A stretch of DNA of 64,000 bases. Source: Brevundimonas naejangsanensis DSM 23858 (GTDB lineage: Bacteria; Pseudomonadota; Alphaproteobacteria; Caulobacterales; Caulobacteraceae). Both the position numbers and the translations under genes were made by a program. The notes under the pieces were generated by a model that was given only the letters and a program-made list of their open reading frames with translations, did not search any database and was not told where the DNA came from. Numbering within the stretch: position 1 is the first letter of the stretch; each line of letters opens with the position of its first letter. The stretch spans positions 868,001 to 932,000 of the forward strand of contig NZ_ATXN01000002.1 of assembly GCF_000421705.1 (NCBI RefSeq), given 5' to 3'. This document shows, in pieces, positions 21,610 through 26,029 of this stretch.

Positions 21610-23412
21610 CTACAGCGGCAGACTGAGCTTCACCGCCGCCATATGGCTGTCGGCATGGTCGCCGAAGCGACCCTTGTAGCCGATCGACACCTTCAGCCGC
21701 TCCATGATGGTGCCTTCGATCCCGGCGGCGGCCAGCACCTGCCCGCCGAACGGCAGATCCACGTCGCGGGCCAGAATCTTGGCCGGATTGCCGAGGATGC
21801 CGGTGCGCACCGCGTCGCTGTCGTCGCTCAGGCTGTCGCGATAACCGCCTTCGGCATAGAAGCGCACCCGCTCGGTCCCGCCCTCGGCGCGCAGAGCGAT
21901 CTCGGCCGTCGTCGCCTGCACCGAACGGTCGGCATAGGCGTATTGCGCCGCCGGACCCTGCTCGCTGAAGCCGTCCACGTCGGCCTTGATCCAGGCCACA
22001 GCCGCACGCGGCGACAGGGCGAAGCCGCCCATGTCGAACCACATCCCGCCCTGCAGCCGCGCCCCGGTTGAGACGCCCCGCGTCGAGCCGCTGTGAACGA
22101 TCGGCGCCAGGCTGGTCAGGCGGTTGATGTCGTTGAAGTCGTCCTGAGCCACGCCCGCCGCCGCATTGACGAAGACGTCGCCCGAGCGCCAGCCGCCGTA
22201 GAGGTCCAGCCCGAAGCTGTCGATGTCGGCGCGCAGGGCGCCCGCATCCACATCGGCGTTGCGATAGGATCCGGCCACGCCAAAACGCAGGGTCTCGGTA
22301 CCGGACTCCAGGGCGATGCGCACGCCATAACCGTCGGAGGTCGCCTTGCCGATGGCGCCGCGGGCGTCCGTCTCAGTCTTGTCAGCCAGCGCGCCGACCG
22401 AGATGGAGGTCCCGCTCTCCCACGCCTCACGCCCCGACAGGGCCGCGGTCGATCCGTCCAGCGCGTCCTCGCGATGCCGCCACGCCGTCTCGCCCAGCAC
22501 GGCCGTCTGGCTGCCCAGGTCGCCGTAGTAGAGGTAGTCGTTGCTCAGACGTGCGATCACCTCATGCCCCTTGGCCGTCGGGTGCACCCCGTCGAAATAG
22601 AAGTAGTCGTCCGGGTTGGAGCACAGGGTCACGCCGTTGAAGCAGGCCTGCGTCACGTTCGACACGCCGAAGGCGCTGGGGTTGGCGGCCACCACGTCGC
22701 CGACCTTGAACAGATCCATCAGGATAATGTTGGTCCCCGGCCGCGCCGCCGCCGTCGCGTTCAACCCGGTCAGCAGGGCGCCGTTGAAGGTGGTGACGGC
22801 GAAGTCGGCCAGCGGCGCGGCGGGCGTACCGCGAAACTGCGGCGTGATGCTCAGTTTGGGCAGGTTTGTGACCAATACGGTCCCCGCTCCGGCCTGGGCT
22901 ATCCCGTTGACGATGAAGTTGATGTCCGCCGCCGCGCTGAGGGCTACGGGCGTGATGGCGCCGGTCGGATTGGTCGAGGCCCCGGCTGTGGGCAGACCCT
23001 GGAAAATGTTGTTCGCCCCGCCCAGGACGCTGACCAGATCGTTCGCGCCGAAGGTTCCGCCGCGCTGCTGATACTGGGCCAGTTGCACACGCATCCCCAG
23101 CGGCATGGCCTCGGCGTCGGTGCGCGCCCCGCCGAAGGCATAGTTGATGCTGCCCGTCACCGGCCCCATGAAGTTGGCGGCGTCAAAGCCCAGCCGCTCG
23201 GTAAACACCGGCCCGTTGGAGAATCGCCCGGCGCCATAGGGAGGCGAGGCCGGGGTCGATCCGCCCGTCGCCAGATACAGGTTGCCGTTGTCCGACAGGC
23301 TGTCGCCGAACACCACCAGACGGTTGTAGCTCTGGGCCGAGGCGGCCCCGGCGACAGACACGGCGGCCAGGCTCAGGGCGGCCAGCGCCGCTCCGCGAAG
23401 AAGACGAGACAT
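21610..23412 (-). CDS. Autotransporter esterase with GDSL passenger domain
   Basis: This 600-residue protein has a signal peptide to ASAQ. A GDSL hydrolase passenger (residues about 28-300) shows block I VVFGDSLSDNGNLYL, block III GANDLVS/GGANNIF and block V FDGVHPTAKGHEV, giving a full Ser-Asp-His triad. An autotransporter beta-barrel covers residues about 330-600. The plan is that of EstA-type outer-membrane esterases acting on lipids or acyl esters at the cell surface. The last residue is Leu (KLSLPL) rather than the usual Phe or Trp. The gene is monocistronic. Confidence 0.88.
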   Translation of the reverse strand: MSRLLRGAALAALSLAAVSVAGAASAQSYNRLVVFGDSLSDNGNLYLATGGSTPASPPYGAGRFSNGPVFTERLGFDAANFMGPVTGSINYAFGGARTDAEAMPLGMRVQLAQYQQRGGTFGANDLVSVLGGANNIFQGLPTAGASTNPTGAITPVALSAAADINFIVNGIAQAGAGTVLVTNLPKLSITPQFRGTPAAPLADFAVTTFNGALLTGLNATAAARPGTNIILMDLFKVGDVVAANPSAFGVSNVTQACFNGVTLCSNPDDYFYFDGVHPTAKGHEVIARLSNDYLYYGDLGSQTAVLGETAWRHREDALDGSTAALSGREAWESGTSISVGALADKTETDARGAIGKATSDGYGVRIALESGTETLRFGVAGSYRNADVDAGALRADIDSFGLDLYGGWRSGDVFVNAAAGVAQDDFNDINRLTSLAPIVHSGSTRGVSTGARLQGGMWFDMGGFALSPRAAVAWIKADVDGFSEQGPAAQYAYADRSVQATTAEIALRAEGGTERVRFYAEGGYRDSLSDDSDAVRTGILGNPAKILARDVDLPFGGQVLAAAGIEGTIMERLKVSIGYKGRFGDHADSHMAAVKLSLPL

Positions 23413-23511: not shown

Positions 23512-25401
23512 TCAGTGCAGGCGCCGGAAGCGGATCGTGCCCGGAAGCTGCTTCAGCGCCGTCAGCGCTTCGCGGTCATAGTCGCGGTCCACGTCGGTGA
23601 TGACATAGCCGGTGCGCTCGTCCGTCTTCAGGTGCTGGCCCAGAATGTTGAGCCCCGCATCGGACAGGGCGCGGTTCAGTTCGGCGAGCACGCCCGGCTG
23701 GTTGCGGTGGATGTGCAGCAGACGGTGCGCGCGCGTCACCTCAGCCAGCTGCACGTTCGGCAGGTTGACGCAGAAGGTGGTGTCGCCCCGGTTCAGATAG
23801 CCCAGCAGACGCTCGGCCGCGAACTCGGCGATGGCTTCCTGCGCCTCCTCGGTCGAGCCGCCGATGTGCGGGGTCAGGATGGTCTTGTCCAGACCGACCA
23901 GCGGGCTGTCGAACGGGTCGGCGTTGGTGCGCGGCTCTTCTGGGAAGACGTCGACCGCCGCTCCGCCCAGACGGCCGGACTTCAGCGCCGCCGCCATCGC
24001 GTCCACATCGACCACATGGCCGCGCGACAGGTTCAGGAACAGGGCGCCCGGCTTCATCTTGGCGAATTGGTCGGCGCCGATGATGGCGGTGTTGTCCTTG
24101 CGGCCGTCGACGTGCATCGTCACCACATCCGCCTCGGCCAGCAGGGCGTCCAGCGAGCGCATCCGCCGGGCGTTGCCCAGCGCCAGCCGCTCGGACAGGT
24201 CGTAAAACAGCACTCTCATGCCCAGGTTCTCGGCCAGCACCGAAAGCTGGCTGCCGATGGCGCCGTAGCCGACGATGCCCAGCGTCTTGCCGCGCACTTC
24301 GCGCGACCCGGTCGCCGACTTGTTCCACCTGCCCTTGTGCATCTCGCGCGACTTGTCCGCCACGTCGCGCATCAGGACGATCATCATGCCGATGGCCAGT
24401 TCGACCACCGAGCGGGTGTTGGAATAGGGAGCATTGAAGACCGCCACGCCCTTGTCCGCCGCCGCATCCAGATCGACCTGATTGGTGCCGATGCAGAAGG
24501 CCGCCACGGCCATCAGCCGGTCCGCCGCGTCCAGCACCCTGCGGCTGACGTTGGTCTTGGAGCGGATGCCCAGAACGTGCACGCCCTTGATCGCCTCGAT
24601 CAGGTCGTCCTCGTCCAGCGCGCCCTTCATCGTCTCGACAGTATAGCCCGCCTCCTCCAGCCGCTCGACGGCGGCGGGGTGGACGTTCTCCAGCAGCAGC
24701 ATACGGATGCGGTTGCGCGGATAGGACCAGCGCCCGGCCACGCCCTCGGCGTAGAGCACCTCGTCCAGCGAGGCGGCGACGGCGTCGGCGGCCTCGACCA
24801 CCTTGGGACGGCTGACGATCTCGGTGAAGGCGTAGAAGCGGTCGGCCGCGCCGTTAAGCTTGACCTCGGCGTCGGTCCAGCCGTCGCCGACCATGACCAC
24901 GGGGCCTTCAAGGTTCAGAGCGCGGATGACCTCGGGCTTGCCGTTCTCGCGCGACAGGGGGTTGGCCGTGTCCACGCCCGTGACGCGGCCTTCGTCATCA
25001 TAGATCAGGTCGTTGGCCAGGACATGGTCGGCCGCCAGACCCAGCCGCTCGGCCAGGGGCGCGATCACCTCGCGAAAACCGCCGGACAGGATGTAGATGC
25101 GCTCGGCGTTGCGCTGGAAGAAGTCGACGTTGCGGCGGATGGAGACGGTCGCCTCGTCCAGAATCCGGTCGGTCAGGGCCTCGACATGTTCACGGCGCAG
25201 CGCCAACAGATCCAGTCGCTGCTTCAACGCCTCGCCGAAACCGATGCGGCCGTTCATGGCGTCGTCGGTCAGGGCGGCGATCCGGGCCTTGCGCTCGGCG
25301 GCGTCCGGGGCGTCCTTGAGCGCGAGGTCGGCCAGAGCCTCCAGCGTCTCGATGCGAACCAGGGTGGAATCGAAGTCGAAGATGAAGACAGGCGAGATCA
25401 T
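23512..25401 (-). CDS. Fused phosphoserine phosphatase (SerB) and phosphoglycerate dehydrogenase (SerA) with ACT domain
   Basis: This 629-residue protein joins two serine-pathway enzymes. Residues 1 to about 215 form a HAD phosphatase: motif I FDFDSTLV, motif II ILSGGF, motif III VVMVGDGWTDAEVKL. Residues about 230-540 are phosphoglycerate dehydrogenase: GTNQVDLDAA, NAD site LGIVGYGAIGSQLSVLAE, LNLSRGHVVD, catalytic TPHIGGSTEEAQ. The last 80 residues (HIHRNQPGVLAELNRALSDAG) form an ACT domain that usually binds serine. The frame is continuous and the joint clean. It would catalyse steps one and three; SerC is not in this window. Residues needed for both activities are visible. Confidence 0.92.
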   Translation of the reverse strand: MISPVFIFDFDSTLVRIETLEALADLALKDAPDAAERKARIAALTDDAMNGRIGFGEALKQRLDLLALRREHVEALTDRILDEATVSIRRNVDFFQRNAERIYILSGGFREVIAPLAERLGLAADHVLANDLIYDDEGRVTGVDTANPLSRENGKPEVIRALNLEGPVVMVGDGWTDAEVKLNGAADRFYAFTEIVSRPKVVEAADAVAASLDEVLYAEGVAGRWSYPRNRIRMLLLENVHPAAVERLEEAGYTVETMKGALDEDDLIEAIKGVHVLGIRSKTNVSRRVLDAADRLMAVAAFCIGTNQVDLDAAADKGVAVFNAPYSNTRSVVELAIGMMIVLMRDVADKSREMHKGRWNKSATGSREVRGKTLGIVGYGAIGSQLSVLAENLGMRVLFYDLSERLALGNARRMRSLDALLAEADVVTMHVDGRKDNTAIIGADQFAKMKPGALFLNLSRGHVVDVDAMAAALKSGRLGGAAVDVFPEEPRTNADPFDSPLVGLDKTILTPHIGGSTEEAQEAIAEFAAERLLGYLNRGDTTFCVNLPNVQLAEVTRAHRLLHIHRNQPGVLAELNRALSDAGLNILGQHLKTDERTGYVITDVDRDYDREALTALKQLPGTIRFRRLH

Positions 25402-25440
25402 GCGCGGGCTCTAGCCCCTCTTCGCACACGCAGCAATAAA

Positions 25441-25462
25441 AAGGGGCGTCGAAACGCCCCTT
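25441..25462. terminator. Hairpin between the SerB-SerA gene and the next gene
   Basis: An AAGGGGCG/CGCCCCTT 8-bp stem with a 6-base loop is preceded by AATAAA on the plus strand. It lies upstream of the fusion gene and 3' of the minus-strand gene 25514-26029, which it probably terminates. Confidence 0.65.
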
Positions 25463-25513
25463 TCCGCATGATTTTTCCATCCGAGGATGAAAACCCGCTC
25501 GGCGACCGCCGTT

Positions 25514-26029
25514 TTAACCCCGTCGACGGCTTTCCAGCGCCGCCGCGCCGATCAGAGCGGCGATGGTCGCCACGGCCAGAAGGGCGCCGCCCTCCTTGGC
25601 GTGATCGCGGGCGAAGTCGCCGGCGTCCTCGGCGTAGCGACGCGCCTGCTTGGTGTAGCGGCGCATCGGGCGACGAGATTTCTTCTTGGCGCGGCGATAC
25701 CAGGCGTCGGCGCGATCACGAGCGTCCTCGCTGAAGCGGCCGACGCGTTCGCCCGCATGGTCGCCGAAATCGGCGGCGCGCTGGCCCAGGTCATCAGCGC
25801 TGTCACGGACGCCGCGCGCGATGTCGTCGAAGCGGTGGCGCAGGGCCTCGGCGTCGAACCAGCCGCGCGGATCCATGCGCGTCTTGATCCGCTCATAGCG
25901 GGTCGGGCCCGTCCGCTGGTTCAGCAGAATGGTCGCCAGCCCCACGCCCGCCAGCACGGCGACGACGCCCGCCACGATACCGGGATGTTTGCGGACCTCG
26001 TCCACGACGTTGAACTCAGGATCCATCAT
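25514..26029 (-). CDS. Hypothetical membrane protein with charged helical centre
   Basis: This 171-residue protein has a hydrophobic segment at about 18-36 (IVAGVVAVLAGVGLATILL), a long Arg/Asp-rich helical stretch (RHRFDDIARGVRDSADDLGQRA...), and a second hydrophobic segment at about 147-164 (GALLAVATIAALIGAAAL) with a basic tail. The pattern recalls YtxH/DUF883-like stress proteins that sit at membranes, but I cannot assign a family. Stops and flanks support a real gene. Confidence 0.65.
   Translation of the reverse strand: MMDPEFNVVDEVRKHPGIVAGVVAVLAGVGLATILLNQRTGPTRYERIKTRMDPRGWFDAEALRHRFDDIARGVRDSADDLGQRAADFGDHAGERVGRFSEDARDRADAWYRRAKKKSRRPMRRYTKQARRYAEDAGDFARDHAKEGGALLAVATIAALIGAAALESRRRG

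Follow-up and report, generated by a model that had tools for sequence, protein, structure and literature searches.

We describe a gene of Brevundimonas naejangsanensis DSM 23858 in which a SerB-like phosphatase and a SerA-type dehydrogenase are joined in one reading frame. Judged from its sequence, the product is probably a bifunctional enzyme for steps one and three of serine synthesis. Far more speculatively, we consider the possibility that its one ACT domain gives serine allosteric control of two non-consecutive active sites, and that one Bacteroidota order has excised the NAD domain, leaving a phosphatase with an emptied dehydrogenase as its serine sensor; feedback would thereby have moved from the first enzyme, its textbook site in serine synthesis, to the last.

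Gene and domain architecture

The fusion gene is a single minus-strand frame that runs from an ATG at 25401 to a stop at 23512 and encodes 629 amino acids. Positions are those of the window, that is, the whole 64,000-nucleotide stretch of DNA analysed. The features are:

23512–25401, minus strand: serB-serA fusion gene, 629 codons and stop (open reading frame, Pfam and NCBIfam matches)
24748–25401, minus strand: HAD-IB phosphatase domain of the phosphoserine-phosphatase type, residues 1–218 (D9, D11, E18, M49, R62, S106, K155, D173, D177)
24718–24747, minus strand: linker, residues 219–228 (alignment and model confidence)
24409–24717, minus strand: SerA substrate-binding domain, first part, residues 229–331 (Pfam, PDB alignment)
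23830–24408, minus strand: SerA NAD-binding domain, residues 332–524 (Pfam 337–514; presumed catalytic R460, E489, H512)
23728–23829, minus strand: SerA substrate-binding domain, second part, residues 525–558 (Pfam, PDB alignment)
23515–23727, minus strand: ACT domain, residues 559–629 (H565, N567, N585)
25438–25460, minus strand: terminator-like hairpin with a T-run, ending about 40 nt 5' of the fusion start codon

A first-pass annotation of this DNA had given the span exactly. The coding strand, however, is the minus strand, and translating the plus strand yields a shadow reading. The plus strand carries a 739-codon open frame (23515–25734) antisense to the entire fusion gene, and such shadow frames are usual in GC-rich coding DNA. 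Third-position GC is similar in the two halves of the fusion (0.89 and 0.91). The next gene downstream (21610–23412, minus strand) encodes a 600-aa protein that, as we take it, resembles a GDSL-type autotransporter esterase.

The hairpin was found in the window and in three of 26 other upstream stretches, at the same distance in two of them (L059 and L061) and at 62 nt in the third (L060), and was not found in the other 23. It is therefore not a family-wide leader; probably, it is the terminator of the upstream gene. The promoter and terminator scan found nothing, and the Rfam search of the window gave no match.

That SerB and SerA, steps one and three, share a chain, as the first-pass annotation had proposed, is borne out by the single frame and by domains that all score above the Pfam cut-offs: HAD (PF12710, residues 7–178), 2-Hacid_dh (PF00389, 235–546), the NAD-binding domain nested within the latter (PF02826, 337–514) and ACT (PF22629, 561–624). 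The SerA model PRK11790 (NCBIfam) matches residues 224–628 over positions 4–409 of its 410, with 643 bits against a cut-off of 404, and E. coli-type SerA chains, to which this part is closest, match residues 226–628 by sequence, with 51% identity by fold alignment. The phosphatase part belongs to the HAD-IB family (TIGR01488, 68.7 bits, cut-off 45). Against the serB model TIGR00338 (NCBIfam), however, residues 5–208 reach 80.7 bits, under the cut-off of 144.15, which places it outside the SerB equivalog. A predicted model (41 aligned fusions) has a mean pLDDT of 87.9 and a pTM of 0.77, and is less certain in the linker (mean 67 at residues 221–230). In the PDB fold search, the best 50 of 1984 matches are all dehydrogenase-fold chains, none of them described with both parts.

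Conserved residues and integrity of the chain

The phosphatase had been described as complete, and the alignment agrees, its catalytic and substrate-site residues being near-invariant in 41 fusions. Thus, D9, D11, T13, E18, M49, R62, K155, D173 and D177 are the same in all 41, from two phyla; S106 is kept in 40 (T once), F55 is replaced by L in five, and G107 varies freely. The phosphoserine-phosphatase motifs DxDST, SxGF, K and GDGxxD are present, together with an E, an M and an R that align with those of solved phosphoserine phosphatases; we take these three to be substrate-site residues, and the roles of the motifs are likewise presumed. Equally invariant (41/41) are R280, N307, R460, E489 and H512 of the dehydrogenase, among which, in the alignment to 1psd, R460, E489 and H512 would be the catalytic Arg, Glu and His, and H565, N567 and N585 of the ACT domain, presumably its serine-site residues.

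These residues bear on another reading of the HAD domain, namely that it acts on a different phosphate ester, for example histidinol phosphate. The score below the serB cut-off would fit this, and one report proposes histidinol phosphate activity for SerB-like enzymes from four bacteria (PMC5764234). Furthermore, although 17 of the 18 solved chains matched by the phosphatase part bear the name phosphoserine phosphatase or phosphohydrolase(-like), the 18th is the algal PSP-GPDH protein (6iuy), which is reported to make glycerol with its PSP-like domain (PMC7468427). We nevertheless consider a different substrate improbable: the E, M and R aligned with solved phosphoserine phosphatases are invariant, the domain is fused to SerA, and among 119 Caulobacteraceae genomes it never occurs together with a standalone serB above the cut-off.

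Residues 205–240, which span the joint, are unchanged in length in 41/41 fusions, and in 35 Caulobacteraceae fusions the linker reads E-G-x-x-G-R-[WYF]-S-[YF]-P. An internal start at this place, a concern raised earlier, would yield free SerA beside the fusion and so two proteins. In-frame ATGs near the joint occur only at residues 234 and 258, and the former might serve as such a start. Yet no ribosome-binding site is visible upstream of the M234 codon, the residue sits inside the first strand of the model (233–237), and it is Met in just 22 of 35 fusions. There is hence no credible start at the joint, and we regard the making of two proteins as very improbable.

Separate serA, serB and serC in the genome

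The assembly searched comprises 3.16 Mb and is 99.99% complete. It holds no second serB above the TIGR00338 cut-off, the remaining matches being fragments in an 847-aa frame. The PF00389 search of the genome returned two further 2-hydroxyacid dehydrogenases. Their best matches are to glyoxylate reductase, at 292 and 178 bits under a cut-off of 455; with the long phosphoglycerate dehydrogenase model they score 240 and 170 bits, where the cut-off is 454, and neither is assigned to a family. No second SerA scores above the phosphoglycerate dehydrogenase cut-offs. Going by these scores, back-up phosphoglycerate dehydrogenase activity from the two appears unlikely. The separate full-length serA or serB for which the first-pass annotation had left room is therefore absent from the genome above the family cut-offs.

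SerC is encoded elsewhere, as had been expected, at C5:185874–186989 (TIGR01365), with the fusion on another contig (C2). The PF00266 candidates for SerC were rejected as other enzymes; of two tested, one is of the cystathionine gamma-synthase type and the other is family-less.

The place of serC matters for the idea that the fusion acts as a scaffold, docking SerC and relaying intermediates. The fused steps do flank the SerC step, as a metabolon would have it, but serC is adjacent to the fusion in none of the loci scanned, and we hold this arrangement to be improbable. Channelling is also unlikely to be the main point of the fusion because the fused steps are not consecutive.

Distribution of the fusion

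Beyond what the first-pass annotation had stated, the fusion is genus-wide and also occurs in Bacteroidota. In Brevundimonas, 35 of 37 genus genomes have the same single frame, well above any chance level; the exceptions are G005, a draft 66% complete in which the two halves lie in overlapping frames, and G023, whose copy is truncated by a contig end. The order-level search found the fusion in 51 of 398 genomes (46 of the 47 of the genus and five others of the family, going by the non-matching genomes listed, which are ordered by kinship), the class-level search in 3 of 385, all of the Brevundimonas genus, and the Bacteroidota search in 26 of 395, with the genome at the centre of that search counted. 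This last search also returned three genomes with an excised form, described below, and 48 matching the SerA part only. The order, class and Bacteroidota searches each scored three candidates per genome at E 1e-60 and could therefore have missed weaker fusions.

A scan of named genomes gave at least 80 homologous loci. Among the 80 listed, 78 carry both parts in a single frame with a gapless joint, two of these being cut later by a contig end, and the remaining two stop at a contig edge before SerA. The listed loci come from Brevundimonas, further Caulobacteraceae and Asticcacaulis, and those from Bacteroidota include Spirosoma, Hymenobacter, Dyadobacter, Chryseolinea, Algoriphagus and Echinicola. 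The plasmid search found no place covering 80% of the fusion or of the excised form.

In Caulobacteraceae, the fusion and a standalone serB exclude each other. Of 119 Caulobacteraceae genomes, 76 carry a serB above the cut-off and 35 the fusion (21 seen in the genus and order searches, 14 checked individually), while none carries both. The rest are two with split pairs (G1210 and G1219), five without a match and one with a contig-edge fragment that has no SerA beside it (G1203); three above-cut-off serB genes in long frames (L229–L231) have no SerA joined to them. The fusion is the sole serB-like match in four of five Bacteroidota genomes that bear it; the fifth contains a further, weak match within a frame of 901 aa. 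Given this exclusion and the lack of any rival above the cut-offs, the fusion seems to replace the separate serA and serB genes.

One of the five without a match, a 99%-complete Brevundimonas (G143), is without the fusion, a serB match or a near SerA and has kept serC, possibly through a true loss, which would make it a possible natural serine auxotroph, or possibly through an assembly gap. In other families of the order, 23 of 24 genomes match only via a distant SerA (32–40%) in a frame of 525–589 aa. In one other family of the order, the two genes converge from opposite strands at two loci, their ends overlapping by 4 bases:

L045, 2055–3919, opposite strands: tail-to-tail serB/serA
L052, 1846–3782, opposite strands: tail-to-tail serB/serA

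Excised relatives in Bacteroidota

The three Bacteroidota genomes just mentioned match residues 3–331 in frames of 436–453 aa and, as a second piece, residues 525–628. The excised forms are:

L165, 2581–3900: excised form
L166, 2501–3808: excised form
L167, 2760–4085: excised form
L194–L211: further excised forms

These proteins (435–441 aa) consist of the phosphatase, the first and last substrate-binding parts and the ACT domain, and lack the stretch equivalent to residues 332–524 of the window protein, which is the entire NAD-binding domain including the catalytic Arg, Glu and His. Because this domain sits inside the substrate-binding domain, its clean removal leaves an unbroken shell. Searching its own order with an excised form gave matches in 299 of 300 genomes, the best E-values being ≤1.2e-170; among the matches listed, each spans from query residue 1–12 to 439, and six carry a stop mark. 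All 21 excised sequences examined, one of which has a stop within the matched stretch, share the same boundary and keep all the phosphatase and ACT residues named above; each of the 21 has another residue in place of the substrate-loop R280.

In two genomes with the excised form (G1066 and G904), serC adjoins a SerA relative whose length, 320 and 316 aa, respectively, is too small for an ACT domain. With the phosphatase and ACT domain kept, the NAD domain gone and a short SerA relative beside serC, serine sensing may have been handed to the phosphatase; if function follows sequence, this is what the excised form suggests.

The SerA-derived ends indicate that the excised form descends from a full fusion. 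In the phosphatase tree, it is nested among living fusions (99/93). However, the AU test does not reject a topology in which the full fusions all form one clade (p 0.085), and long branches meet at the outgroup there; the excised form may thus be either nested in the full fusions or sister to them.

Origin, tandem and split forms

The fusions form a family defined by one frame, the same joint and common descent. In the SerA-part tree (62 rows), they make up one group (98/92) with one unfused row inside; the Caulobacteraceae fusions (100/99) stand beside the Bacteroidota fusions (97/95), and the nearest unfused rows are from Bacteroidota. The unfused row inside is L174 (2977–4206), a SerA that neighbours a Saprospiraceae fusion and may represent a loss of the phosphatase domain or a long-branch error.

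Independent fusion in the two phyla was considered and is rejected by the identical joint and the tree. With the same joint across phyla and such a tree, a single fusion event followed by transfer between phyla appears to be the simplest account. Likely, the fusion was born in or near Bacteroidota and passed to the ancestor of Brevundimonas and Asticcacaulis, though this direction is not proven because the Caulobacteraceae fusions branch beside the Bacteroidota fusions as a sister group and not from within them.

Two unfused arrangements stand close to the fusion. At L168 (3348–5224, Bacteroidota), one of the nearest unfused rows of the SerA tree, serB directly precedes serA with stop and start overlapping as ATGA, likely an image of the pre-fusion state; its phosphatase is a long branch in the phosphatase tree. 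In G1210 and G1219, from one Caulobacteraceae genus (L221 and L227), serB and serA are overlapping neighbours in different frames. With 69 rows, the SerA tree places this split pair inside the Caulobacteraceae fusions (99/94), although the AU test does not reject a tree that groups the 22 Caulobacteraceae fusions to its exclusion (p 0.078). The pair reads as a natural fission, in which a stop and a new TTG start would overlap as TTGA. A lineage with a split pair also means that the joint is not indispensable.

Both arrangements would suit a frozen accident, in which a translationally coupled serB-serA pair lost its stop and both parts stayed active, with the fusion and the ACT domain bringing neither joint control nor gain. 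The ATGA overlap of the tandem pair and the TTGA overlap of the pair split again inside the fusion clade favour it, as does the want of an adjacent serC. An accident of this kind sits poorly, however, with a joint of constant length in 41/41 fusions from two phyla, and with an excised form in which ACT has stayed with the phosphatase across an order (299 of 300 genomes) although the dehydrogenase is gone. On balance, we see in it a serious, if doubtful, possibility.

Proposed function

In the bifunctional reading, which we prefer, the C-terminal part would oxidise 3-phosphoglycerate (step one), free SerC would perform step two and the N-terminal part would dephosphorylate phosphoserine (step three), with the fusion standing in for separate serA and serB genes. 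E. coli SerA assembles through ACT, and the fusion may do so as well. Serine at the shared ACT domain would throttle both activities, and the entry and exit of the pathway would be tuned together at a fixed 1:1 dose. We regard this shared control through ACT as plausible rather than probable; it becomes likelier because relatives have lost the NAD domain yet keep the phosphatase and ACT.

Several facts count against the bifunctional reading: the 80.7 bits of the phosphatase against a serB cut-off of 144, the Brevundimonas genome without the fusion (G143), the unfused L174 inside the clade, the split pair within it, and the adjacency of serC in no locus scanned. The first-pass annotation had argued that the phosphatase would pull the first step forward. 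This is a weak argument, since the phosphatase drags the pathway fused or not, and SerC stands between, so that the dehydrogenase's product is not its substrate.

Should the proposal hold, one sensor seems to serve both ends of the pathway. The excised order amounts to a natural deletion experiment, the dehydrogenase domain being gone in nearly all sampled genomes while phosphatase and ACT stay, and the four forms (tandem, fused, split again and excised) make a hand-over of ACT control between enzymes directly testable. There is a practical side too, as best-hit annotation may label fusions SerA and report serB as missing.

Comparison with known systems

Full-text literature searches, with most subscription journals outside their range, found no paper on a SerB-SerA fusion. 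Relative to the literature searched, what is new is the pairing of SerB with SerA, how widely it occurs and, most of all, the excised form, although databases may list the architecture; fusion of pathway steps is a known kind, represented by oomycete SerA-SerC and algal PSP-GPDH.

The C-terminal 400 residues are like E. coli-type SerA (PRK11790; PDB 1psd, 1yba) in domains, catalytic R/E/H and ACT serine site, and differ by the in-frame N-terminal phosphatase. That phosphatase in turn resembles SerB (TIGR00338; PDB 1nnl, 1f5s) in its HAD-IB match, catalytic motifs and substrate-site residues, but scores under the equivalog cut-off and is joined to SerA. The oomycete SerA-SerC protein likewise carries two serine-pathway steps per chain; these are, however, steps one and two, in eukaryotes and with other partners (PMC2705460). 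In algal PSP-GPDH (PDB 6iuy), too, a PSP-like HAD domain precedes an NAD dehydrogenase, but the protein is reported to make glycerol, its phosphatase uses the dehydrogenase's own product, and the dehydrogenase is of another family (PMC7468427). The excised form compares with mycobacterial SerB2, which also combines a phosphatase with ACT and is reported to be inhibited by L-serine, partially and mainly competitively, a precedent for serine inhibition of a phosphatase that bears ACT; SerB2 differs in having two ACT domains, placed N-terminally, and no dehydrogenase remnant (PMC10564941).
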